A program made the translations under genes and the position numbers. 64,000 nt of DNA from Muricea muricata. Its lineage: Eukaryota > Cnidaria > Anthozoa > Malacalcyonacea > Plexauridae. The notes beneath the pieces were generated by a model. It was given only the letters and a program-made list of their open reading frames with translations, made no database searches and was not told the origin of the DNA. The DNA lies in contig OY979718.1 of NCBI GenBank assembly GCA_963855995.1, forward strand, positions 26,278,282-26,342,281. The letters run 5' to 3'. Below are positions 29,750 through 56,790 of the stretch, piece by piece. Each line of letters opens with the position of its first letter. The first letter of the stretch is position 1.

Positions 29750-30396
29750 TACAACCATTTGCAAGCTACCGTTCACCGCGCATTCAAAACAACGTTTTAA
29801 AAAGTTATGAATAGTATGTTAGTCAGTTGAAACTTATCAGTTTCAGCTGTCAAACTTGTAAGTTTTGAACGCGTAACTTGTAGTTTTGTGCGCGTAACTT
29901 GAAGTTTTGGTGCCGTAACTTGTAGTTTTGATGCCATAACTTGTAGTTTTGATGCCATAACTTGTAGTTTTGATGCCGTAACTTGTAGTTTTGATGCCGT
30001 AACTTTTCGCTTTGTGATTCCAAAATGATGAATATTGCAACACATATACAGTAGCGGAAATTCAGTTGAAACCTCTTCAACTGAATTTCCGCTACTGTAT
30101 ATGTGTTGCAATATTGATCATTTTGGAATCACAAAGCGAAAAGTTACGGCATTAAAACTACAAGTTACGGCATCAAAACTACAAGTTATAGCATCAAAAC
30201 TACAAGTTATGGCATCAAAACTACAAGTTACGGCACCAAAACTTCAAGTTACGCGCACAAAACTACAAGTTACGCGTTCAAAACTTACAAGTTTGACAGC
30301 TGAAACTAATAAGTTTCGACTGACTAACATGCTCTTCATAACTTTTTAAAACGTTGTTTTGAATGCACGGTGAACGGTAGCTTGCAAATGGTTGTA
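29750..30396. mobile_element. Foldback element with internal 18-bp tandem repeats
   Basis: Two arms of about 320 bp are reverse complements around a 5-bp centre (acctc at 30071-30075). Outer ends are caaccatttgcaagctaccg and its complement. Each arm carries about eight tandem copies of an 18-bp unit (gtaacttgtagttttgat and variants). Both arms give a mirror-image 104-codon open frame, a consequence of an 18-bp period being a multiple of three. Terminal inverted repeats made of short tandem units are typical of Foldback (FB) elements. It lies about 750 bp upstream of the TPR gene's ATG. Confidence 0.8.
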
Positions 30397-31146
30397 ATAC
30401 ACCTGAACAGCTTTTAATTCCTGGAAAAGTTTTCGAGTTATTTGTTTGACTTTTTATCGGAGAATTGAACCAAAGTTGCACATATAAAACTGGGTATAAT
30501 AGCTTTAAAATTGGTGTTTCACAACGCATAACACAAAAACTATTTGAACAATGAAAAAACTGCTTGGGAGTTACAAATGCAGTTTTTTCTCTTTCTGATA
30601 ATGCAGTCGCTTTTGCCATCATTGAATAGCACATTTCACGTTTTTATTGTAATACAATTTAATAGATAATAATCACAAATCATCCATTTTCTCGGTATCT
30701 CGAAAGTTTTTCGCTTGCAACGTTTTTGGCTGTAATGTATCTATATGTCTTTCAAGTAAATCACAAAGCAAGTGCTTCCCAGATTGGTACGACGAAAATA
30801 TATTTGTAGCCACCTTTTTACCTGGTGGGCCACAGTCTAAGCGGAAAAAAATATTTAATACCAGAAAATCTTTCAGCGGGGGATACGAACATGAAAAACG
30901 GGCACGGAGCACTTAACTTTTAAAAAGGTCACTTTTCTTTGGCCGACGAGCTGCCTGGCCACACTCATATCATGGATCTCGTGTTTAAGAATAGGTAGAT
31001 CATAATCGGCAAACTATGTAAAACGTGTAAAGAAAAATCAGATTCACTATTTTCAATAAAATACGACCAAGTTTTCTCAAAAATAACATGTTTCTCCTTT
31101 CATCTGCAAGGACAAAAACCATGCAATTTAAATAAAAGAGTTAATC
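30397..31146. promoter_or_regulatory. 5' flank of the TPR gene; possible 5' UTR acceptor
   Basis: A strong acceptor (tttctcctttcatctgcaag, exon from 31111) lies 36 bp before the ATG at 31147, so the 5' UTR is probably interrupted by an intron and the promoter may be further upstream. An in-frame TAA lies between that acceptor and the ATG. A minus-strand ORF at 30673-30912 (79 aa, containing LDCGPPGKKVATNIFSSY) has protein-like composition but no family I recognise. Confidence 0.4.
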
Positions 31147-34100
31147 ATGGGAAATCAGCTTCAAAAGAAAAGACAGCTTCTAGCAAAGCTTAGTTTGGGC
31201 CACTCGTATATGAGAAAAGAAAATTTTCCAGCAGCAATTGAAAATTTTCAAAAAGCTCTAAAACTGGCTGACGAAGCAGGAGACGGAATAAGATTAAACG
31301 AATCAAATCTTCAGTTAGGACATGCTTACAGACTGAGCAATCAGATTCAAACGGCAATTGAATATTACGAAAAAGCCTTGGAATTTGCAAGAGAACGAGA
31401 AGATAAGGCAAACGAAACAGACGCTTGCCTAGGGCTAGGACATTCATATATTCAGGTAAATCAGACTCAAACGGCAATTGAATATTACGAAAAAGCCTTG
31501 GAAATTGCAAGAGAACGAGAAGATAAGGCAAACGAAACAGACGCATGCCTAGGGCTAGGACATTCATATATTCAGATAAATCAGACTCAAACGGCAATTG
31601 AATATTACGAAAAAGCCTTGGAAATTGCAAGAGAACGAGAAGATAAGGCAAACGAAACAGACGCATGCCTAGGGCTAGGACATTCATATATTCAGATAAA
31701 TCAGACTCAAACGGCAATTGAATATTACGAAAAAGCCTTGGAAATTGCAAGAGAACGAGAAGATAAGGCAAACGAAACAGACGCATGCCTAGGGCTGGGA
31801 CATTCATATAGAATGAAAAATAAGATTCAAACGGCAATTTTTTATTACGAAAAAGCTTTGGAAATTGCAAGAGAACGAGAACATAAGGCAAAAGAAGCAG
31901 ACGCATGCCTAGGGCTTGGACATTCATATATTCACATAAATAAGATTCATAAGGCAATAGAATATTACAAAAAAACTTTCAAAATTGCAAGAGAACGAGA
32001 GGATAAAGCAAACAAAACAGACGCATACCTGGGGCTAGGACATTCATATAGAAAGATAAATGAGACTCAAATGGCAATTGAATATTATGAAAAAGCCTTG
32101 GAAATTGCAAGAGAACGAAAAGATAAAGCAAACGAAACAGACGCATGCCTAGGGCTAGGACATTCATATAACAAGATAAATGAGACTAAAATGGCAATTA
32201 AATATTACATAAAAGCCTTGAAAATTGCAAGAGAGAAAGAAGATAAAACAATCGAAACTGACGCATGCCTAGGGCTTGGGCATTCGTACATACAGAAAAA
32301 TAAGATTCAAACGGCGATTGTATATTACGAAAAAGCCTTGGAAATCGCAAGAGAACAAGAAGATAATGCAAACGAAACAGACGCATGCCTAGGGCTAGGA
32401 CATTCATGTATTCAGATAAATCAGACTCGAACGGCAATTGAATATTACGAAAAAGCCTTGGAAATTGCAAGAGAACGAGAAGATAAGGCAAACGAAACAA
32501 ACGCATGCCTAGGGCTGGGACATTCATATAGAATGAAAAATAAGATTCAAATGGCAATTTTTTATTACGAAAAAGCTTTGGAAATTGCAAGAGAACGAGA
32601 ACATAAGGCAAACGAAACAGACGCATGCCTAGGACTAGGACATTTATATATTCACATAAATCAGACTCAAAAGGCAATTGAATATTACAAAAAAGCCTTG
32701 GAAATTGCAAGAGAACGAGAAGAAGAGGCAAACAAAACAGACGCATACCTGGGGCTAGGACATTCATATAGAAAGATAAATGAGACTAAAATGGCAATTG
32801 AATATTACGAAAAAGCCTTGGAAACTGCAAGAGAACGAGAAGATAAGGCAAACGAGACAGACGCATGCCTAGGGCTAGGACATTCATATATTCAGATAAA
32901 TCAGACTCAAACGGCAATTGAATATTACGAAAAATCCTTAAAAATTGCAGGAGAACAAGAATATAAGGCGAGCGAAACAGACGCATGCCTTGGGCTTGGA
33001 CATTCATATAGAAAGAAAAATGAGATTCAAACGGCAATTGAATATTACGAAAAAGCTCTGGAAATAGCAAGAGAACGAAAAGATAAGGCAAGCAAAAGCG
33101 ACGCATGCCTAGGACTAGGACATTCATATAGAAAGAAAAATCAAATTCAAACAGCAATTGAATATTACGAAAAAGCCTTGGATATTGCAAGTGGACGAGA
33201 AGATAAGGAAAAAGAAGCAAACTCATACAAACGGTTAGGCAATTTATATGTTCAGATAAAAAAAACTCAAACGGCAATTGAATATTACGAAGAAGTTTTG
33301 GAAACTGCAAGAGAACGAGAAGGCAAAGTTTTTAAAAAACTCGCATGCATACAGTTAAGCTATTTATATAGAAAGAAAAATCAGACTCAAAAAGAAATTG
33401 AATACTATGAAGAAGCCTTAGAAATTGCAAGAGAACGAGAAGATAAAGCAAACAAAACAGATGCATACCTGGGGCTAGGACATTCATATAGAAAGATAAA
33501 TGAGACTCAAAGGGCAATTGAATATTACGAAAAAGCCTTGGAAATTGCAAGAGAACGAAAAGATAAAGCAAACGAAACAGACGCATGCCTAGGGCTAGGA
33601 CATTCATATATTCACATAAATCAGACTCAAAAGGCAATTGAATATTACAAAAAAGCCTTGGAAATTGCAAGAGAACGAGAAGATAAGGCAAACGAAACAG
33701 ACGCATGCCTAGGGCTAGGACGTTCATATAGAAATATAAATCAAATTCAAACGACAATTGAATACTATGAAAAAGCTTTGGAAATTGCAAGAGAACGAGG
33801 AGATAATGCAAATGAAACAGACGCATGCCTACGGCTAGGATATTCATATATTCAGACAAATCAGACTCAAATGGCAATAGAATATTACGAAAAAGCCTTG
33901 GAACTTGCGAGAGAACGAGAAGATAAAGCAAACGAAACAGACGCATGCCTAGGTTTAGGATATTCATATAGAAATATAAATCAGATTCAAACGGCGATTG
34001 AATATTACGAAAAAGCCTTGGAAATCACAAGAGAACGAGAAGATAATGCAAACGAAACAGACGCATGCCTAGGTTTAGGATATTCATATAGAAATATAAA

Positions 34101-36055
34101 TCAGATTCAAACGGCGATTGAATATTACGAAAAAGCCTTGGAAATCGCAAGAGAACGAGAAGATAAGGCAAACGAAACAGACGCTTGCCTAGGGCTAGGA
34201 CATTCATATATTCAGGTAAATCAGACTCAAACGGCAATTGAATATTACGAAAAAGCCTTGGAAATTGCAACAGAACGAGAATATAAGGCGAGCGAAACAG
34301 ACGCATGCCTAGGGCTAGGACATTCATATAGAAAGATAAATGAGACTCAAATGGCAATTGAATATTACGAAAAAGCTTTGGAAATAGCAAGAGAATGTGA
34401 GAATAAGGCAAACGAAACAGACGCATGCCTAGGGCTAGGACATTCATATATTCACATAAATCAGACTCAAACAGCAATTGAATATTACGACAAAGCCTTG
34501 GAAATTGCAAGGGAAGGAGAAGACAAGGCAAACGAAACAGACGCATGCCAAGGGCTAGGACAATCATATATTCAGATAAATCAGACTCAAAAGGCAATTG
34601 AATATTACGACAAAGCCTTGGAAATTGCAAGAGAACGAGAAGATAAGGCAAACGAAACAGACGCATGCCTAGGGCTAGGACGTTCATATAGAAATATAAA
34701 TCAAATTCAAACGACAATTGAATACTATGAAAAAGCTTTGGAAATTGCAAGAGAACGAGGAGATAATGCAAATGAAACAGACGCATGCCTACGGCTAGGA
34801 TATTCATATATTCAGACAAATCAGACTCAAATGGCAATAGAATATTACGAAAAAGCCTTGGAACTTGCGAGAGAACGAGAAGATATAGATAAAGCAAACG
34901 AAACAGACGCGTGCCTAGGTTTAGGATATTCATATAGAAATATAAATCAGATTCAAACGGCGATTGAATATCACGAAAAAGCCTTGGAAATCGCAAGAGA
35001 ACGAGAAGATAATGCAAACGAAACAGACGCATGCCTAGGTTTAGGATATTCATATAGAAATATAAATCAGATTCAAACGGCGATTGAATATTACGAAAAA
35101 GCCTTGGAAATCGCAAGAGAACGAGAAGATAATGCAAACGAAACAGACGCATGCCTAGGGCTGGGACATTCATATATTCAGATAAATCAGACTCAAACGG
35201 CAATTGAATATTACGAAAAAGCCTTGGAAATTGCAAGAGAACGAGAAGATAAGGCAAACGAGACAGACGCATGCCTAGGGCTAGGACATTCATATATTCA
35301 GATAAATCAGACTCAAACGGCAATTGAATATTACGAAAAATCCTTAAAAATTGCAGGAGGACAAGAAGATAAGGCAAACGAAACAGACGCATGCCTAGGG
35401 CTAGGACATTCATATAGAAAGAAAAATCAGATTCAAACGGCAATTGAGTATTACGAAAAAGCCTTAAAAATTGCAAGAGAACGAGATGATAGAGAAAAAG
35501 ATGCAAAGGCATATGTAGAGTTAGGTGATTTATATATTGAGATAAATCAGAAACAAACGGCAATTAAATATTACGAAAAAGCCTTGGAAATTGCAAAAGA
35601 GCGAGAAGATAAGGCAAACGAGACAGAGGGATGTCTAGGGCTAGGACAGTCATATAGAAAGAAAGAGGAAAAAGAAGAAGCAGAAGTCTATCTTAAGCTC
35701 GGCGATATATTTTATGAATTGACGCAATACGAGAAAGCCATCGAATCTTATCAACACACTTTATCTCTTGGACGAAAATTGGAGGATGAAGAAATGAAAT
35801 GGGTTGTAATTCAGAAGTCAGGAAAATTGTGCTTGACTTTGGCATCAAGTTATTCTAAAGATTGTGATTATGACAAGGCGATAGAATGGTACAAGAAGGC
35901 GTTGGAGATTACGGAAACAGGATCCAGTCATCATGTTTTGTACGTAAAAGCCCTTACTGGTTTAGGTGTTGCCATGTTTTATATTGGACATACTGAATCT
36001 GCAATCGAATCAATACGAAAAGCCCAATCATTTTCTGATAAAGAAGTTGAAACAG
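31147..36055 (+). CDS. Giant TPR-repeat protein, first coding exon
   Basis: The frame encodes about 1636 residues before a donor (AACAG/gtaaat at 36055). After a short N-terminus there are about 36 consecutive 40-residue tetratricopeptide repeats of the type CLGLGHSYIQINQTQTAIEY followed by YEKALEIAREREDKANETDA. They keep the TPR positions Leu7, Gly8, Tyr11, Ala20, Tyr24 and Ala27. Three or four more diverged repeats follow. Forty-residue helical repeats of this sort, as in LGN/GPSM2-like proteins, build protein-binding superhelices, so a scaffold or adaptor role inside the cell is likely. Start choice: ATG 31147 is the first ATG after an in-frame TAA. Units are near-identical in DNA, with an 8-unit block duplicated (33721 and 34681) and a 6-bp insertion near 34886. 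Past 36055 the frame runs through a SINE and is intron. Confidence 0.85.
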
Positions 36056-36121
36056 GTAAATATGTTCGACCCACATACATTTTGTTTCTTTATAATTACG
36101 TAAATTTACACATTTTATTTT

Positions 36122-36366
36122 ATTTCATTAATTTCGCCACAAGGGCAGGGTCACCACAACAGCGTGGGCTAATTACTGTGGGCCCGTGTTACCTATCCCA
36201 CCCTCTCAACATTCCGTGTGGGAGGAACCGGAGAAAACCCACGACTTTAGGCAGAGCGTTGACTATACTCTTTTCATATGAGGACTGGGTTCGTGTTTAC
36301 CTTACTGGGGATCGAACTCGGAACCTTAGAGGTGAAAGGCAGTGGTCTGACCACTACACCCCCAAA
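36122..36366 (-). mobile_element. tRNA-derived SINE in intron
   Basis: Read on the minus strand, the 5' end carries an A-box-like tgtagtggtcagacc and, about 35 bp on, a B-box gagttcgatcc, as in tRNA genes and their SINE descendants. The body holds 'gtgggttttctccggttcct', a conserved block that recurs in several invertebrate SINE families. The open frame of the TPR exon runs across it only by chance; it lies after the donor at 36056. Confidence 0.75.
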
Positions 36367-36553
36367 GCCACAGGAAAATTGTTGGGTTAACTGAGTTAAC
36401 ATATTAAATACTTACACGTTAACGAGATAATATCGCGGGAAATTGGACACTTTGAAACGTATTGCTTTGCTTCTCGAATATGGCTAAGTTCACATAAGAT
36501 TGATTAAAAGACGTGATACCATCCGTTTTACATATTTACCTGTGTCGATGGAG

Positions 36554-36672
36554 GTCTTAATGAGTTTGCAATTGAATTAGAATTAAATGGGAACAAGCTA
36601 GGCAAAATAGTTCACGTTAACGTAACGAACAAAGGGACAAGTCAGACTTTGGAAGTAACTGCCATACATGTT
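36554..36672 (+). CDS. Candidate second exon of the TPR gene
   Basis: An acceptor (gtcgatggag) precedes 119 nt that continue the TPR exon exactly: the leftover G plus GT makes Gly. It then reads LNEFAIELELNGNKLGKIVH followed by VNVTNKGTSQTLEVTAIHV, ending at a consensus donor gtaagt in phase 0. The alternating hydrophobic pattern suggests beta strands, perhaps an immunoglobulin-like or ubiquitin-like fold, but no family is recognised. Confidence 0.55.
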
Positions 36673-36779
36673 GTAAGTGTTTTACTGCATCTGGAGACAC
36701 GAGGCCATCAAGGTTTAACTTTTTTCGTTAGATGTAATTCATCTAAAATGCACGCTCTAATTACTTTAAAAGTATTAAG

Positions 36780-36929
36780 GAGTGCTATTTGACTGCACCA
36801 TGTACATTAAAACTCAAAATTCATTGTTTGAAAATACGTCTTTAGATTTGGAAAATGTCGTCCATCAATCTACGCACGAGCATAAGAACTCCACAGATCA
36901 AACACCACCGCCCATCAATGCACCACCAG
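36780..36929 (+). CDS. Candidate third exon (Thr/Pro-rich tail)
   Basis: An open stretch ends in STDQTPPPINAPP at a good donor (CACCAG/gtaaaa) in phase 1. The acceptor (attaag or aggag) leads into this frame only from a phase-1 exon, whereas the preceding candidate exon ends in phase 0. Either one boundary is misplaced or this exon belongs to another splice form. Confidence 0.35.
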
Positions 36930-37356
36930 GTAAAATCAATTATTATTTCATTCATTTTATCATAACTTGATAGTGCCTGTTCGTCGGTTTTATACCAACA
37001 ATGGGGAACAGTATCCGCTTGCTGTTTTTCGAAGGTCTTCGTCACAGTGACATGATTTTAGTCACTACATGATATAAAACTTTGTGAGATCATGAATAAT
37101 TAATGAGTCCATCTAGCAATTACATTGTAGTATTTCAGTCACATCTATATGCACTTGTAAACCCAAGAAAGTAATGTGACGCAAGACGATCTGTATCAAA
37201 GTTAATGCATAGTTGATGTCATTGATTATTCTGTTTAATCATGCATTTCACAAGTACGTTATAATGCTAGCGACAGATATGTGGGGGGGGGGGGGGGTTA
37301 AAAATTGTAAATACCCATACAGATCCGTCGCTCGTAATATAACTATTATTTATTAG

Positions 37357-37433
37357 ATTCTCTCGTTCGAACCGAAACACAGACATTGGAATTTGAAGAA
37401 GCCGAGGAATGGACTGCTAGAATTTACAATTAA
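37357..37433 (+). CDS. Candidate terminal exon of the TPR gene
   Basis: Acceptor aactattatttattag is followed by AT, which with the leftover G of the previous candidate exon makes Asp. It then reads SLVRTETQTLEFEEAEEWTA and RIYN before TAA. Phase fits, but the exon is short and acidic with no domain, and no AATAAA was seen close behind. Support comes from splice consensus and phase. Confidence 0.3.
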
Positions 37434-38452
37434 TCATGCAATTGTGTATTTTTATTATATATGACTATAGACATTTATACGTGCAGTAGTCGGGCGAAAC
37501 AAAACTCGTATCTCACCGCATACTATATGTTTTCATGTGTTTGGAGCATGGGATGTATCAAAAAATTTGAAATGCTGTTCTAGGACACTTTTTGTATGAT
37601 CCCACAAACTTTATATTGCCCAATGCCTCAATCGCTCAACGTTTGTTGACTGAGTGGTGTCGTTTGACGTTTGCAATGAACTGATACCAGCATGTTTAGC
37701 GGTAAAATTGTTAACCGCGAACGTTAAATCTCATGCACAAGTCAAACATGAATCCACGTGAGAAGTAAAATTACTGACCATCGACCACCAGCATCTATGC
37801 TGCACCAAGACAAAGTCACACTATAGGGAATGGATAGTAGGGCCACCCAGCCGTGCAACACGGCGCCCTATCATTATGCAGTTTACTGGATGCCACCAGC
37901 CAGTTCAGCGTTCTTATTGGCCAGAAAATGCAATTGACTGGCTGGCATAATGGTAATGAGATGCATAATGCGATATGCGTGGACACACAAACTTCAACTG
38001 AGTGGCTCTATTGTCTATTCCATATACTGTGTCAAAAACAGTATGTGTACAGCCTATATACAGCATTGATATAGTGATGTCTTTTGCAGTAAAGATCAAT
38101 GGCTTTATTGCTTCTTCAACAGACACAGCTGATTCGGTAAAGGTTGTCCGTGCGCTCACGCAGGGCGTAGGAAGCAACGTGAAGTTGGACGGGCACCACA
38201 TTATAAGGGCACCTTTTTCATTAAAACATTAAAGATTACCCCCTTGTTTTATCTTGAAAAAGGGCACTTTGGGATCTGATTTTAACTGTATAGCAATATG
38301 CGAAAAGCTCGCGATAATTTATTAATTGATATATATGTATAGGGATTTTAAACACAGAAATTCGAGACTAAGAGTTACGTAATTCTCATCCAAATCCATC
38401 ATGCTTTTCACGCTTAAAGGTGGGAAAATAAGTCTCATTTTAATCTTTTCAG
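37434..38452 (+). other. Region between TPR and protease genes
   Basis: No clear gene boundary is visible. An alternative exon starts at about 38091 after acceptor gatgtcttttgcag, reading VKINGFIASSTDTADS and onward to a stop at 38232. It could receive the leftover G at 36929. An ATG at 38401 is in frame with the protease, but a strong acceptor at 38452 suggests translation enters from an upstream exon. Confidence 0.35.
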
Positions 38453-39633
38453 TGGAATGGTTAAACGAAGTTGTTGTAGAAGGATGTGACGTGAGCAAAG
38501 CAAAAAGTTTGGCAGACGAAGACTTGGTTCAGCTGGAAAATAGTATCAAAACATTTTCTGCCAAATATGTGTATACTCATCCAACATCAAGCAAAGATCT
38601 GTTAACCGAGAAAATTCGGCAAACCATGACAACAAATGTTAAATCCTCAGCTTACAAAAACCTGCTCGGACGAAATCAAGGAAAATTGCGTACGAACAAC
38701 GGAACTACTGTAGATGACGATGAACAGATTGTCACCTTCGCAAGAAACGACATTTCAAAGAATGTCTCCACCAAAGTACCTGCTCTATTGCTTCAGCATA
38801 TTTATTTATGCCTGAAGTCGATTGGACAAATTTCATGTGGACGACAGTTTGGAACATGTTGGCTTGTGAAAGATACGTTGGTCATAACCAACCATCATGT
38901 TTATATGATGTTTAACACAGAACGAAACAACCATCCAGGTGTGAGCCTGCCCATAACTGTTTCATTCGATTTTTTCGACCTTGAAAACCGCGAAAACGTT
39001 CAAACGGTGGAAGTGGATGAGCAGAAGGATCCTCAGATTGAAGGTCCTCACCTAGATTATAAATTTTTACGTTTGAAAGAATGCGAAGCTTTAACGAATC
39101 GTGCTCGTCTGGGTACAATTGTCAGAAGTCGTCGATTACAAGATGGTCGGGTTATCATCGTTGGTCATCCAGCAGAAAAACAAATGTTTCAGGAAACCTG
39201 CGTTGTTGTCATGACTCATTCTTGGCGGCAGATATTTGAAGGAAGGCGAGCGAGATTTCAGCAATTGGGTGAGGAGCATAGACGACGAATTGGAGGCCAA
39301 AGAAGGCACGAAGATGATACAGATTTGCAGCAGTCTGCTGGCCTGCACATGGCGAATGAAGACTTTTTGCAGTCGAGAGAAAGAGACGAATCATTTCTCC
39401 CATACGACACAAGTCTTTTTTCTGGCACTAGCGGTTCGCCTGTGTTTGATCTGAATGGAAAGATAGTCGCAATGCACACACAGAGATATACATTAGGTGT
39501 TGATGGGGGAAAACAATATTCATTGATGGACTTTGGTGTCCAGTTTAGTGCAATTTGTGAAGATTTGAAAAGACGGAATCTTCTAGAAGAATTATTTCCA
39601 AACTGTGATTTAGAAAGAATGGAAACAATTTAG
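38453..39633 (+). CDS. FAM111-like trypsin-fold serine protease
   Basis: The catalytic exon of a chymotrypsin-fold protease resembling the FAM111 family of nuclear proteases, named by motif style and not by search. Numbered from the in-frame ATG at 38401, the triad is His166 (VITNHHV), Asp219 (HLDYKFLRL) and Ser344 (FSGTSGSPVF). The loop just before the Ser motif is long and charged (residues about 275-335). After it comes GKIVAMHTQ and DFGVQFSAICEDLKRRN, like the substrate-binding C-terminal strands and helix. A strong acceptor (cattttaatcttttcag) at 38452 starts the exon with TG, needing one base from upstream, so the 5' part is missing or 38401 is an alternative start. No signal peptide is evident in the exon. 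It ends at TAG 39633 with AATAAA at 39733. It is on the same strand as the TPR gene, 1-2 kb downstream. Confidence 0.75.
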
Positions 39634-39840
39634 TTGAAGAAAACCGCTAACACTAGTGGGAAACAACAAAGTTAGTATGACTATCACTGAAGATTCATGA
39701 CTGTAAAGCCATCATGAGACTTCATCTCACTCAATAAACTACATAGAATGTCAAACCACACACAACTTTTATCCACACACCCCATATGATGACAGAGAAT
39801 CGTTGGAACTTCTGAAGTTTGTGTTATTTGAAGTCTGGCC

Positions 39841-40050
39841 AATCAATTGCCTTCTCTCACCAATGGAAATGCAATCTCGTACCCAGAGCAATGGCTATCC
39901 GCGGGTTCAGATTGGCATTGGCTTTGGCGAAATAGAAAACCGGAAGCCCTAAATTTTGGGGTTCCGGTTGTTGTGCGCATGCTCCAAAGCCCGATCGCTT
40001 GAAGATGGAAGTGCATACTGCCAATTTGGTAAACAAGCATAGCACTATAG
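39841..40050. repeat. Dispersed repeat, copy 1
   Basis: It shares 'caatctcgtacccaga', 'ggcattggct'-like text, 'gcatgctccaaagcc' and spacing with 45195-45400; a shorter relative ('aatctcaacctgcg... tctgggtacaagattg', inverted) lies at about 40595-40655. Non-coding. The repeat type is not identified. Confidence 0.55.
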
Positions 40051-40212
40051 ACCAGGCTTGCCGTTTAAGTTTAAATGTATTTATCTTGAATAGACAAACT
40101 ATTTTGGAAAAGGTATGGTTAAATTAAGCCTACTGGAATTTGTTATATTTCGTCACATATAAGGATTTGTTTATATATAGTAAGGCATGCAAGAGTCGCA
40201 AGCCGTCGTAGC

Positions 40213-40474
40213 CATTGACATATATACATCTGGACTGCCAGCTCGACTTTGAAAAGCGTTATCAAAGATGGCCGAAACATGAGAGTGTTTGCTCATGAAG
40301 TTGACTGCTGACCACTATTTTTTGTATTATTTAAGAGCCAGCAATGTTCAATCACTCTCATATTCGTCAGTTTTCGTCATTATTCGTCAGCCTTCGCGAT
40401 TTTCAATTGATAACGCAAAATTCAAGCGAAAATATTGCGAGCAGGCAGTCCAGATGTATTTATGTCAATGGTCG
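40213..40474. mobile_element. MITE, copy 2 (TIR ATTGACATATATAC)
   Basis: Inverted termini ATTGACATATATACATCTGG and CCAGATGTATTTATGTCAAT bound the element, whose interior is homologous to 10373-10636. Flanking text gives a possible short duplication (tcgta on both sides of an extended CCATTGAC terminus) but this is not conclusive. Confidence 0.8.
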
Positions 40475-40922
40475 TAACTCGAATGATTTTCAGCGACATT
40501 TAGGTCTAGATGCCAAACTGGATCACCCATTTTGCATTAAAACTGATCCTTAATGTTTGACCATTCACAGCACACGAGGATTCTAATTCTCCAAAGTAAA
40601 TGCCAATCTCAACCTGCGAACAGGCATTGCTCTGGGTACAAGATTGATTGAAACGCTGAACTGTGCTTTCTGCCATTAGTCGGGCCAATCATACTCACGG
40701 TCAGATCAGCTTGACACTCTGTATAATACGTCCATCACTTAATGATCGTGTCGTGTCTTAAAAGTTAACTAATTCCTTTTCTTTGGCATGTGTTTTTCAT
40801 TGAAACTTTCTCGTTCAAGGACGGCTGTCTGCAATATTCAACGTATGACTGTAAGCTTTTCTTATGCAGTCAACATTAATGTGGGATTGTGGTTAGATCG
40901 ATGAATAGATAGGAAGATAGTT

Positions 40923-42440: not shown

Positions 42441-43132
42441 AGACATTGAAGAAAAAACGACAAAAGTTGACGCAACAAATTACATTGACAGTAGTTGTCA
42501 CTTTAGATAAAATCTTTTTAACTTCGGCGATTTTATCCTATATTATTTTAAATCTTGTTTTTATGGCTTTACTCAAAGCAGTATGTTGGGCAATGATCTT
42601 TATTATAGGAATACGTTTTCCGCCTGCACGTCTCTGCCTATACAGTATTGAATGATCGCTATTTTCTGTTTCTTCAAAACAATACATATTCTCAGCTGTT
42701 TAAAACCTCGGTTGATATCTGTTCCTGTTGAGACATCAATATTTATAATTTTTTAAGCAAAATATATGATTTAATTGCTTAAGCTGATGTTGTGAACTTT
42801 TTTAAATCTCATTCAATCATTTGGATTCTTCAGAAGCTCATTTGCTGAATCTAAATTTGAATTATCACATTTAAATAAAGTGAACTCTAAATTCCCCCGC
42901 CTCCAAACCTCAAGGGTCTGTCGTGTACGCTACAGTTGTCATGAATTTTTATCACAGCTCATGCAGCTGGAATTGAGTGGCCTGCTATGCTGTATATAGA
43001 TCTATGGAAGATTCGATTTAAAATTTCAAAGCTATATGGATTCAAAATTAACTCTCCGCCAAATTTAGAAGGAAGGCATTTTAAAGCTGGTTACTTCGAA
43101 ATGAAGTTCTAGTCATTATTAGCCAGTTAAAC
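42441..43132. other. 5' flank of the GPCR gene
   Basis: AT-rich with no coding signal. The 69-aa ORF at 42446-42655 is hydrophobic but has no recognised family. Promoter elements could not be assigned. Confidence 0.35.
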
Positions 43133-44179
43133 ATGTCGACGTGCGGTAACGTACGAAATAATACGACGCAGGTGATTCAAAATTCAGAAAATTCTGTACA
43201 AGTTCCAGATATATTCCTTATCTTGGTAGCCTTAATCGGGATGCTTCTTAATGGAGTTCTGTTGGTTTTCGGCAGAAAGAATGTACCCAAATCTTGTTTG
43301 ATATTCATATGCAACTTGGCCGTAGCAGACTTGGCCACGGCGATAGTCGCCCTATTACTCGGTTTCAAAAAGTTAATCGGGTCCAAAATTTTTCATCGGA
43401 CCTTCGCTATTGCATCTTGGTGTACAGTTTTGGCCTCATTCCTTACACTCCTAGGCATCGCAGTACAGCGATACATATCTGTGGTTTATTCTATGTGGTC
43501 GCACTCGAGAATGAAGAATTTGGAATGGCTCTATAAGTTAATAATAATCGTAATCTGGTTGGTTGCTTTAACTCTAGCGCCATTCTTGCATTATTTTAAG
43601 GTAGTTACTCTACTCATTATGACGACGTTCGAAGAGCTAATGATTATTGTAATAATATTTCTTTACTTGAATATTCACTGGTCCTTTCGCAGCTACAGGT
43701 TAAAAGATAAGGAAGGACTTTTCGCCAAGGACAAAGAACGTTTGAGGCTTAATTTAAAGAAAGAAGCAAAACTTTCGGTTGTTGTATGTTGTGTTACAGC
43801 AATGCTCGTTATCGGAGTCTTGCCGAACGTTATAACTGTACAGGCAATGACAATAATGGCCCTCTCTAGAGATGTGAAAAATTTGCATTGCACGAAAATT
43901 CTGAATGATTTTCACTCGTACTTGGTGCTCATAGAAGTTTTGGGTTTCGGCCTAAATCCCATCATCTATTTCTGGCACAATCGGATTACAAACATGACTA
44001 GTAATGCTAACTGGCTTGAGAGAGTTCGTCGTGCAATTGGCATGACAAAAGCGAAAGGAAGAATCGTTCCAGAAATAACTATTATGCAAAGTAGAACAAC
44101 GGAATTGGCACATTCTGTGTGTTCAGCTGAAAGAGAAACAAACGCAATGAGGAACAATGAGAAAAACGGCTGCAGTTGA
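43133..44179 (+). CDS. Class A (rhodopsin-like) GPCR, single exon
   Basis: A 348-residue intronless receptor. Seven hydrophobic segments are visible. TM1 has Asn40 (the 1.50 position) in LLNGVLL. TM2 reads NLAVADLATA with Asp66 (2.50). TM3 ends VQRYISVV, so the E/DRY motif is QRY (112-114). TM4 carries Trp in IVIWLVALTLAP. TM6 has the conserved Pro in GVLPN without CWxP. TM7 has LNPIIYFW (NPxxY). The N-terminus has NxT/S sites (N9, N10). No Cys is seen in extracellular loop 2, so the usual TM3-EL2 disulfide is probably absent. The C-tail is about 60 residues and Arg/Lys-rich. Such intronless divergent receptors are common in cnidarian lineage-specific expansions; the ligand is unknown. The start is the first Met before TM1. 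Confidence 0.85.
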   Translation: MSTCGNVRNNTTQVIQNSENSVQVPDIFLILVALIGMLLNGVLLVFGRKNVPKSCLIFICNLAVADLATAIVALLLGFKKLIGSKIFHRTFAIASWCTVLASFLTLLGIAVQRYISVVYSMWSHSRMKNLEWLYKLIIIVIWLVALTLAPFLHYFKVVTLLIMTTFEELMIIVIIFLYLNIHWSFRSYRLKDKEGLFAKDKERLRLNLKKEAKLSVVVCCVTAMLVIGVLPNVITVQAMTIMALSRDVKNLHCTKILNDFHSYLVLIEVLGFGLNPIIYFWHNRITNMTSNANWLERVRRAIGMTKAKGRIVPEITIMQSRTTELAHSVCSAERETNAMRNNEKNGCS

Positions 44180-55044: not shown

Positions 55045-56790
55045 AAATAAATAATTTTTTATCATGGTTATATATACCAGATTTCTGTACGATTTGTACT
55101 TCCAAGTACAGTGAGGGTATCAATACGAAACTACACCTGCAGTCCTGCACTACAAGACTAAGTGTACATCTTGAAATTGATCATTTTTTGTTATGGTTAT
55201 TATATATGTATAGGATTTCTGTACCGGTACGTTTAGTATTTCCAAATACAGTCTAGGTATCAATACAAATAAAAAATGATCAATTTTAAGATCTATACTT
55301 GCTCTTATAGTGCAGGTGAAGTTTTGTATTGATACCTTCACTGTACTTGGAAATACAAAACATACAGAAATCCTGTATATATAACCCTGATAAAAAATTA
55401 TCTTTTTCAAGATCAATATATACTTGCTCTTATAGTGCAGGTGTAGTTTTGTATTGATACCTTCACTGTACTTAAAAATAAAAAACATACAGAAATCCTG
55501 CATAAATAACCATGACAAAAATGATCTTTTTCAAGATCTATATATACTTGCTCTTATAGTGCAGTTGTAGTTTCTTATTGATACCTTCACTGTACTTGGA
55601 AATAGAAAACATACAGAAATCCCATATATATAACCATGATAAAAAATTATCTTTTTCAAGATCTATACTCTTATAATGCAGTTTTAGTTTCGTATTGATA
55701 CCTTCACTGTACTTGGAAATAGAAAACATACAGAAATCCCATATATATAACCATGATAAAAAATTATCTTTTTCAAGATCTATACTCTTATAATGCAGTT
55801 TTAGTTTCGTATTGATACCTTCACTGTACTTGGAAATAGAAAACATACAGAAATCCTGTATATATAACCATGATAAAAAATTATCTTTTTCAAGATCAAT
55901 ATATACTTGCTCTTATAGTGCAGGTGTAGTTTTGTATTGATACCTTCACTGTACTTAAAAATAAAAAACATACAGAAATCCTGCATAAATAACCATGACA
56001 AAAATGATGTTTTTCAAGATCTATATATACTTGCTCTTATAGTGCAGTTGTAGTTTCTTATTGATACCTTCACTGTACTTGGAAATAGAAAACATACAGA
56101 AATCCCATATATATAACCATGATAAAAAATTATCTTTTTCAAGATCTATACTCTTATAATGCAGTTTTAGTTTCGTATTGATACCTTCACTGTACTTGGA
56201 AATAGAAAACATACAGAAATCCTGTATATATAACCATGATAAAAAATTATCTTTTTCAAGATCTATACTTGCTCTTATAGTGCAGGTGTAGTTTCATATT
56301 GATACCTTCACTGTACTTGGAAATAGAAAACATACAGAAATCCTGTATATATAACTATGATAAAAAATTATCTTTTTCAAGATCTATTCTTGCTCTTATA
56401 GTGCAGGTGTAGTTTCGTATTGATACCTTCACTGTACTTGGAAATAGAAAACATACAGAAATCCTGTATATATAACTATGATAAAAAATTATCTTTTTCA
56501 AGATCTATACTTGCTCTTATAGTGCAGGTGTAGTTTCATATTGATACCTTCACTGTACTTGGAAATAGAAAACATACAGAAATCCTGTATATATAACTAT
56601 GATAAAAAATTATCTTTTTCAAGATCTATACTTGCTCTTATAGTGCAGGTGTAGTTTCGTATTGATATATACCTTCACTGTACTTGGAAACACACAGAAA
56701 TCCTGTCTATATACCATTAAAAAATGATTTTTTTCAAGATCTATACTTGGTGACAGTGGTTTATAGGAGGAGTAGTTTTGTATTTGATAC
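55045..56790. repeat. ~120-bp satellite with higher-order structure
   Basis: Twelve direct units ('ttgataccttcactgtactt' at about 55329, 55454, 55578, 55695, 55812, 55937, 56061, 56178, 56299, 56420, 56541 and 56662) have spacings of 125, 124, 117, 117, 125, 124, 117, 121, 121, 121 and 121 bp. The 125-124-117-117 series recurs, indicating a higher-order unit of 483 bp. The leftmost two units (about 55045-55262) are in opposite orientation. Long minus-strand ORFs over the array are a by-product of the repeats. Confidence 0.85.

Follow-up and report, generated by a model that had tools for sequence, protein, structure and literature searches.

Do a long array of tetratricopeptide repeats (TPRs) and the trypsin-fold serine protease that follows it on the same strand belong to one gene, or do two genes happen to stand side by side? 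The question is raised by positions 31147-39633 of a 64,000-nucleotide stretch of the anthozoan Muricea muricata (GenBank assembly GCA_963855995.1, contig OY979718.1, positions 26,278,282 to 26,342,281, forward strand; hereafter the window), for which an earlier note, made from the letters alone, had proposed either a fusion of a TPR gene with a FAM111-like protease or a two-part system. Comparison with copies of the locus elsewhere in the genome supports the view that array and protease would be one fused gene and not two. We think it rather probable that the locus is one three-exon gene whose 2,057-residue product would run from a TPR superhelix through a short linker to a FAM111-like serine protease at the C-terminus, the last acting as a proximity-activated and exchangeable effector, most likely in intracellular defence.

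Gene structure

The predicted gene (31147-36055, 36846-36929 and 38453-39633, + strand) gives an unbroken frame of 2,057 residues when its exons are joined. Its parts and signals are listed here, with exon boundaries within motifs marked by a slash.

31111..31146, + strand: probable 5' untranslated end of exon 1, behind the acceptor TCTCCTTTCATCTGCAAG/G (98.3rd percentile)
31147..36055, + strand: coding exon 1, with the start ATG and the TPR array; 1,636 complete codons and one base (phase 1)
35641..36055, + strand: 'TPR end', the family-specific last TPR repeats adjoining the effector, from the genome search (E < 1e-25 group)
36846..36929, + strand: mini-exon of 84 nucleotides, phase 1-1, encoding a 28-residue linker, DLENVVHQSTHEHKNSTDQTPPPINAPP; open with splice sites in 10/10 loci
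36056..38452, + strand: intronic stretch apart from the mini-exon, with the exon candidates at 36554, 37357 and 38091; from alignment of the window with six paralogues
38453..39633, + strand: last exon, a lead of ~130 residues and then the FAM111-like trypsin-fold protease; stop codon at 39631-39633
39733..39738, + strand: AATAAA, 100 bases 3' of the stop and the sole one on the + strand within 35900-40500

Order, strand, intron phases, open frame, catalytic triad and purifying selection were all read from the sequence; splice sites were scored with a generic consensus matrix, and percentiles are relative to all such sites in the window. The tandem, same-strand arrangement described in the earlier note holds, with an uninterrupted TPR frame from 31147 and the trypsin-fold exon at 38453. 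The product starts MGNQLQKK, and MGN is also the start in 3/4 of the other copies with a single-exon array (that of c9740 differs); a pyrimidine-rich stretch ending AAG/GACAA likewise precedes the ATG in c9897, c9844 and c9554. The single base that the TPR exon was said to leave is confirmed by the donor at 36055 (CAG/GTAAAT, phase 1), which stands at the 99.5th percentile of window GT sites and is kept in 10/10 copies, and the phase-1 donor seen at 36929 (98.4th percentile) is that of the predicted mini-exon. The protease exon does open behind a good acceptor at 38453 (97.8th percentile) that requires one base from upstream; the remark that it has no clear start needs amending, as there is an in-frame ATG at 38401, ahead of the acceptor, though one is found in only 4/10 copies.

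The mini-exon is open in 10/10 loci, preceded by AG and ended by CAG/GTAAA. Its length is 84 nucleotides in seven loci, 99 in two and 102 in one, all multiples of three, and the longer versions (99, 99 and 102) come from the three copies that have diverged furthest, where the splice sites follow the same pattern. In the alignment of the window with six paralogues it is free of indels, whereas its flanks show them. The score of its acceptor, below 3, counts against it. If it is left out of the splice, the frame of the window gene is still kept.

Other exons had been suggested between array and protease. The exon at 36554, which was to accept the base left by the TPR exon, is rejected: its acceptor falls short of a score of 3 (CAG in four of the six alignable paralogues vs GAG in the window), splicing as 36554-36929 yields 25 stops, and frame-breaking gaps or an absent start are found in 6/6 alignable paralogues (gaps of 5 bases, two copies; of 1+5+4, two copies; of 17, one copy; start absent from c9740). 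The 36929 donor had been allowed to feed an exon at about 38091 or a terminal exon at 37357. The former is not supported: it is open in a single paralogue, c9740 (88% identity over 43 residues), whereas a 4-base difference disrupts it in c9897 as well as c9844, and c9673 lacks it. The latter is not supported as a conserved coding exon, since the paralogue frames stop at differing places. An acceptor-like AG is retained at 37357, and the peptide behind it (37357-37433, DSLVRTETQTLEFEEAEE..) has an ending like that of an open reading frame (ORF) at 607-858 of L034, the sibling locus C12:7134900-7139200 (minus strand) described below (DSHVGTETLECEEVEQ..). It is possible that this region, shared between a protease gene and a KEN gene, is an old alternative last exon; because of the similar ending at the sibling locus, a protease-less alternative ending at 37357 is also possible in the window.

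Copies elsewhere in the genome

The genome searched was the window's own assembly (453 Mb), with 20 kb, ending ~500 bases beyond the protease, taken for each of the nine copies on C12 and for the relative on C11 described below. Nine other full-length copies of the protease exon, 53-88% identical, were found, all at C12:9.51-9.90 Mb on the minus strand. The same cluster holds three further protease fragments, and a diverged relative and partial matches are located on C11; the window locus is the only copy found on C3. In 9/9 full paralogues the specific TPR end lies upstream on the same strand, 1.2-2.6 kb away, and in 10/10 copies, the window's included, the TPR exon ends ACA G/GTAA in phase 1 and the protease exon opens behind TTTTCAG, again in phase 1. 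The joined three-exon frames are open in 5/5 copies with a single-exon array, at 2,057 (window), 2,215, 1,535, 1,276 and 1,059 residues. Fusion is favoured because donor, mini-exon and acceptor hold phase 1 in 10/10 copies despite a synonymous divergence (dS) between proteases of up to ~1.6; together with the open frames this argues for the fusion, of the two readings that the earlier note had offered.

The two halves may not have shared all of their history. The three most diverged proteases have a dS of ~1.4-1.7, yet the dS of their TPR ends is 0.28, and c9513 and c9554 pair in the protease tree (83/69) but are split between groups in the TPR-end tree. An explanation for this contrast and conflict is that TPR and protease halves were exchanged or homogenised separately.

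Domains of the predicted protein

The assignment of the protease to the FAM111 type is borne out. Its best structural-entry matches by phmmer are two FAM111A entries (E 2.7e-12 for 8s9l and 3.7e-12; the next match has E 0.02), it is homologous to the animal proteins FAM111A and FAM111B over ~260 residues, and the catalytic His, Asp and Ser align with the FAM111A triad and are intact in 10/10 TPR-linked copies and in the C11 relative. Pfam returned only Trypsin_2 (E 1.1e-12) and a weak Peptidase_S7 for the window protease ORF, with no match to a ubiquitin-like domain in what was a general scan, with no dedicated model or structure; neither the protease nor the C11 relative has an NCBIfam match. 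No relative was found in the prokaryote and virus contig collections, and phages gave two records of one phage at E 0.7. The ratio of nonsynonymous to synonymous divergence (dN/dS) of the window protease is 0.20-0.42 against its nine paralogues (0.37-0.42 against the four nearest) and 0.16-0.56 in six pairs among the paralogues; on these ratios, the protease is under purifying selection.

The C11 relative (C11:12808723-12809667, minus strand) is a FAM111-like frame of 542 residues with a long N-terminal part lacking TPR matches, and no TPR match was found in the ~17.9 kb upstream of its frame. Two stretches of its N-terminus look ubiquitin-like by eye. If they truly are, FAM111 would have possessed its ubiquitin-like part earlier than PMC9798293 proposes.

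The window's TPR array comprises 36 units of ~40 residues and degenerate end repeats (Pfam TPR_1, E 3e-244), and the five single-exon-array copies range from 12 to 40 units. The nearest natural solved structures (E 1e-37) are the TPRs of LGN/GPSM2 and Pins, which are short scaffolds without a protease; the top match (E 5e-59) is an engineered TPR. Repeat variability was described over 218 units of nine arrays; as the units depend on one another, the percentages serve for description only, and four of the nine arrays are long frames upstream of loci with a separate last TPR exon, candidates for membership of the gene there. Entropy is highest at positions 9, 14, 12, 13 and 2, and of sets of positions drawn at random 0.05% reach the level of the ligand-facing set 2, 5, 9, 12 and 13; the figure is 0.42% with the window array by itself, and it is ~1% within the first helix. 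Positions 2, 5, 9, 12, 13, 33 and 34, on the concave face, are the most variable of TPRs generally (PMC1261162); as the pattern is general, it would indicate a binding-type array and not a special one.

Related loci with another effector

The earlier note had likened the pairing of a repeat superhelix with a protease to the sensor and effector of innate-immune proteins. The analogy is strengthened by loci at which the same TPR family leads into a protein kinase and a KEN RNase domain. When the TPR end was searched against the genome, scoring of 150 out of 981 candidates gave at least 122 places at E <= 0.001 and 14 at E < 1e-25, these being 13 on C12 (12 at 9.51-9.90 Mb) and the window; ten have a full protease behind. 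At C12:7138874 the TPR end is followed by a kinase 1.8 kb on and a KEN domain ~3.2 kb on (locus C12:7134900-7139200, minus strand). At C12:9872686 the kinase comes ~9 kb and the KEN domain ~11 kb on (locus C12:9860929-9873081, minus strand), and the frames between TPR end and kinase look like a mobile element. A more distant array (42%) at C1:40741158 also leads into kinase and KEN (Pkinase E 2e-23, PF06479 E 5e-13; C1:40740500-40745108, + strand). The loci at C1:40.74 and C12:7.14 Mb are thus outside the protease cluster and that at C12:9.87 Mb within it. Phase 1 is used throughout, by the donors at the three TPR-KEN loci and the acceptors of the four kinase exons read. Two further TPR ends, at C12:9773824 and C12:9759351, have no protease or kinase-KEN match in the stretches searched; a mini-exon match is present at the second. 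Neither the kinase exons nor the KEN exons of the siblings match anything in the window at E 1e-5, and kinase and KEN are found only at the sibling loci.

KEN (PF06479) has 59 matches across the genome, every one of them above the cut-off, and at least 9/59 are preceded on their own strand, at a distance of no more than 12 kb, by a TPR place (38 of the 122 TPR places were used), one with a protease between. At C12:9636998 (locus C12:9636500-9640500) and C12:9618948 (locus C12:9618600-9620200), both on the minus strand, the broken tail of a FAM111-like protease comes ~45-48 bases behind a KEN exon and has its start at the same residue in both; these are probably remnants of an exchange of effectors. 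Long frames (~970-2,480 residues) contain many of the 59 KEN matches, in a cluster at C9:4.3-5.15 Mb and at C7:11.70-11.72 Mb, which suggests an expansion of KEN proteins of other architecture.

In a tree of 15 TPR ends (ten protease-linked, three KEN-linked and two without a recognised effector) the ten protease-linked ends group together (86/89; 84% of bootstrap trees), to the exclusion of the KEN-linked and effector-less ends. A midpoint root on the C1 side would have the protease kind arise once from the KEN kind, a single origin that is tentative in view of how the tree is rooted, the length of the C1 branch and support that is no more than moderate. It is possible, although we would not go so far as to call it probable, that these loci make up a modular family of animal receptors, with a single TPR scaffold joined through phase-1 introns to exchangeable, proximity-activated effectors, either a FAM111-type protease or an RNase L-type kinase-KEN. 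The two kinds would be interleaved within a single gene cluster, the protease kind would have arisen once from the RNase kind, and later recombination would have put KEN exons before protease remnants.

Surrounding sequence

Two arrays of a 21-base repeat, of about seven copies each and in opposite orientation, are located at 29853-30005 and 30141-30293, the second ending ~850 bases ahead of the ATG of the TPR gene. Downstream of the protease are a single-exon frame for a rhodopsin-type receptor (43085-44179; 7tm_1, E 2.5e-15) and a tandem array of about 12 copies of a 121-base unit (55269-56749).

Discussion

What would such a protein do? Recognition, activation by dimerisation and a part in defence are what we infer for it. 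Because repeat-to-repeat variation is high at ligand-facing positions, the TPR array may be a recognition scaffold; binding of a ligand would gather two or more molecules, and that proximity would switch on their protease domains. The job of the scaffold would then be to bring molecules together, and the effector slot would be exchangeable. At the sibling loci Pkinase and PF06479 stand behind the TPR end as kinase and KEN stand behind the sensor part of RNase L and IRE1, which carry ankyrin repeats and a lumenal domain respectively and are activated by dimerisation. Likewise, the human FAM111A protease domain cuts substrates only as a dimer, via a helix at its N-terminus (PMC10920703). A TPR scaffold that clusters on its ligand would suit either effector, and this would explain why the effectors could be exchanged. 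By analogy, defence would be the likeliest setting of the TPR-protease family, given the turnover in the cluster and the fact that both FAM111A and RNase L are known to act against viruses.

A number of observations weigh against this proposal. The paralogues share ancestry, so agreement in 10/10 copies does not amount to ten independent observations, and in c9673, c9513, c9703, c9803 and c9576 the last TPR exon (in a frame of 375-404 residues) is apart from any long array. Substitutions in the mini-exon are mostly nonsynonymous and exceed the synonymous ones, so that what speaks for it is its open frame, its length and its splice sites, as would suit a loose linker. An AATAAA is found within the intron in 8/9 paralogues and 7/9 have none in the 400 bases beyond the last matched codon, for which reason an argument from poly(A) signals was dropped; the AATAAA at 39733 is not conserved among paralogues and is weak evidence. 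The dN/dS of the TPR ends, 0.29-0.81, indicates weak constraint. Within the repeats, position 14, outside the ligand-facing set, ranks second in entropy and position 5, inside it, is conserved, and variability at ligand-facing positions is a general property of TPRs. Autocleavage by FAM111A is independent of dimerisation (PMC10920703), and single-sequence structure prediction of the protease was unusable (mean predicted local distance difference test score, 34.6).

One alternative accepts a fused gene with no role in defence. The TPRs would form a scaffold for structure or trafficking, like those of LGN/GPSM2 or TTC28, and the protease would be a housekeeping enzyme, for example one that removes proteins obstructing replication. 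That LGN and Pins are the closest solved natural TPRs would fit this, as would the action of FAM111A at replication forks (PMC10920703, PMC9798293) and the description of the expanded coral TTC28-like family as possibly a cell-cycle family (PMC9145168). However, the clustering of the family, its variable repeat number, the relics and the signs of effector exchange look conflict-driven, and we regard a housekeeping role as unlikely. Another possibility, which we consider improbable, is that two neighbouring genes travel together, one for a TPR protein, perhaps ending at 37357, and one for a separate protease, as a two-part system. Several copies do have an acceptor-like AG/ATT at 37357, with a similar peptide ending at the TPR-KEN locus at C12:7.14 Mb, the intron holds an AATAAA in 8/9 paralogues, and a Met ~56 codons into the protease exon, ahead of the catalytic domain, is conserved in every aligned copy; but the phase-1 donor, mini-exon and acceptor are kept in 10/10 copies, only 4/10 protease exons have an in-frame ATG ahead of their acceptor, and the 37357 frame stops at differing places in the paralogues. 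That the window holds a decaying, isolated duplicate away from the cluster, which may lack expression, is very improbable: it is the only copy found on C3, and the cluster contains both stop-bearing fragments of the protease and TPR ends that have no recognised effector behind them, but 2,057 open codons, an intact triad and the dN/dS against the four nearest relatives speak against decay.

If array and protease are indeed one gene used as a sensor with an attached effector, it can be filed under a known pattern, that of sensor repeats joined to a proximity-activated effector. TTC28 and the coral TTC28-like proteins (TPR and CHAT) also end in a peptidase-type domain behind a long array of TPRs, and the TTC28-like family, expanded in Montipora (PMC9145168), is the nearest published coral pattern found. 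The C-terminal domain of TTC28 is CHAT, whereas the window gene has a trypsin-fold serine protease; CHAT (PF12770) is absent from the Pfam matches listed for six window ORFs (25 of 34 families for the TPR ORF), as are STAND ATPase and death-like domains. Vertebrate FAM111 proteins have two N-terminal ubiquitin-like domains, with a PIP box added in mammals, and the ubiquitin-like domains are absent in two marine invertebrates (PMC9798293); TPRs are not mentioned in the FAM111 literature consulted, in contrast to the array of the window gene. The table of KEN partners in PMC3710099 gives ankyrin, CCCH, UBI and BRCT, and TPR is not among them. No TPR-FAM111 gene is described among the papers listed from the open-licence literature (titles and abstract starts), the 866 FAM111-like sequences of PMC9798293 being outside this comparison, nor is a TPR-kinase-KEN gene described in the titles and abstract starts of that literature. 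Bacterial conflict systems with trypsin-like effectors and TPR/STAND sensors likewise combine sensor repeats with swappable effectors, trypsin-like domains included (PMC8195603), but are prokaryotic, whereas the genes considered here are spliced animal genes.

In the FAM111 literature consulted, these proteases appear chiefly as replication and antiviral factors of vertebrates, equipped with ubiquitin-like domains. If the proposal made here is true, sensor and weapon would have been recombined in animal genomes much as they are in bacterial defence systems, and the TPR-protease genes would offer a direct route to asking what the original function of FAM111 proteases was.

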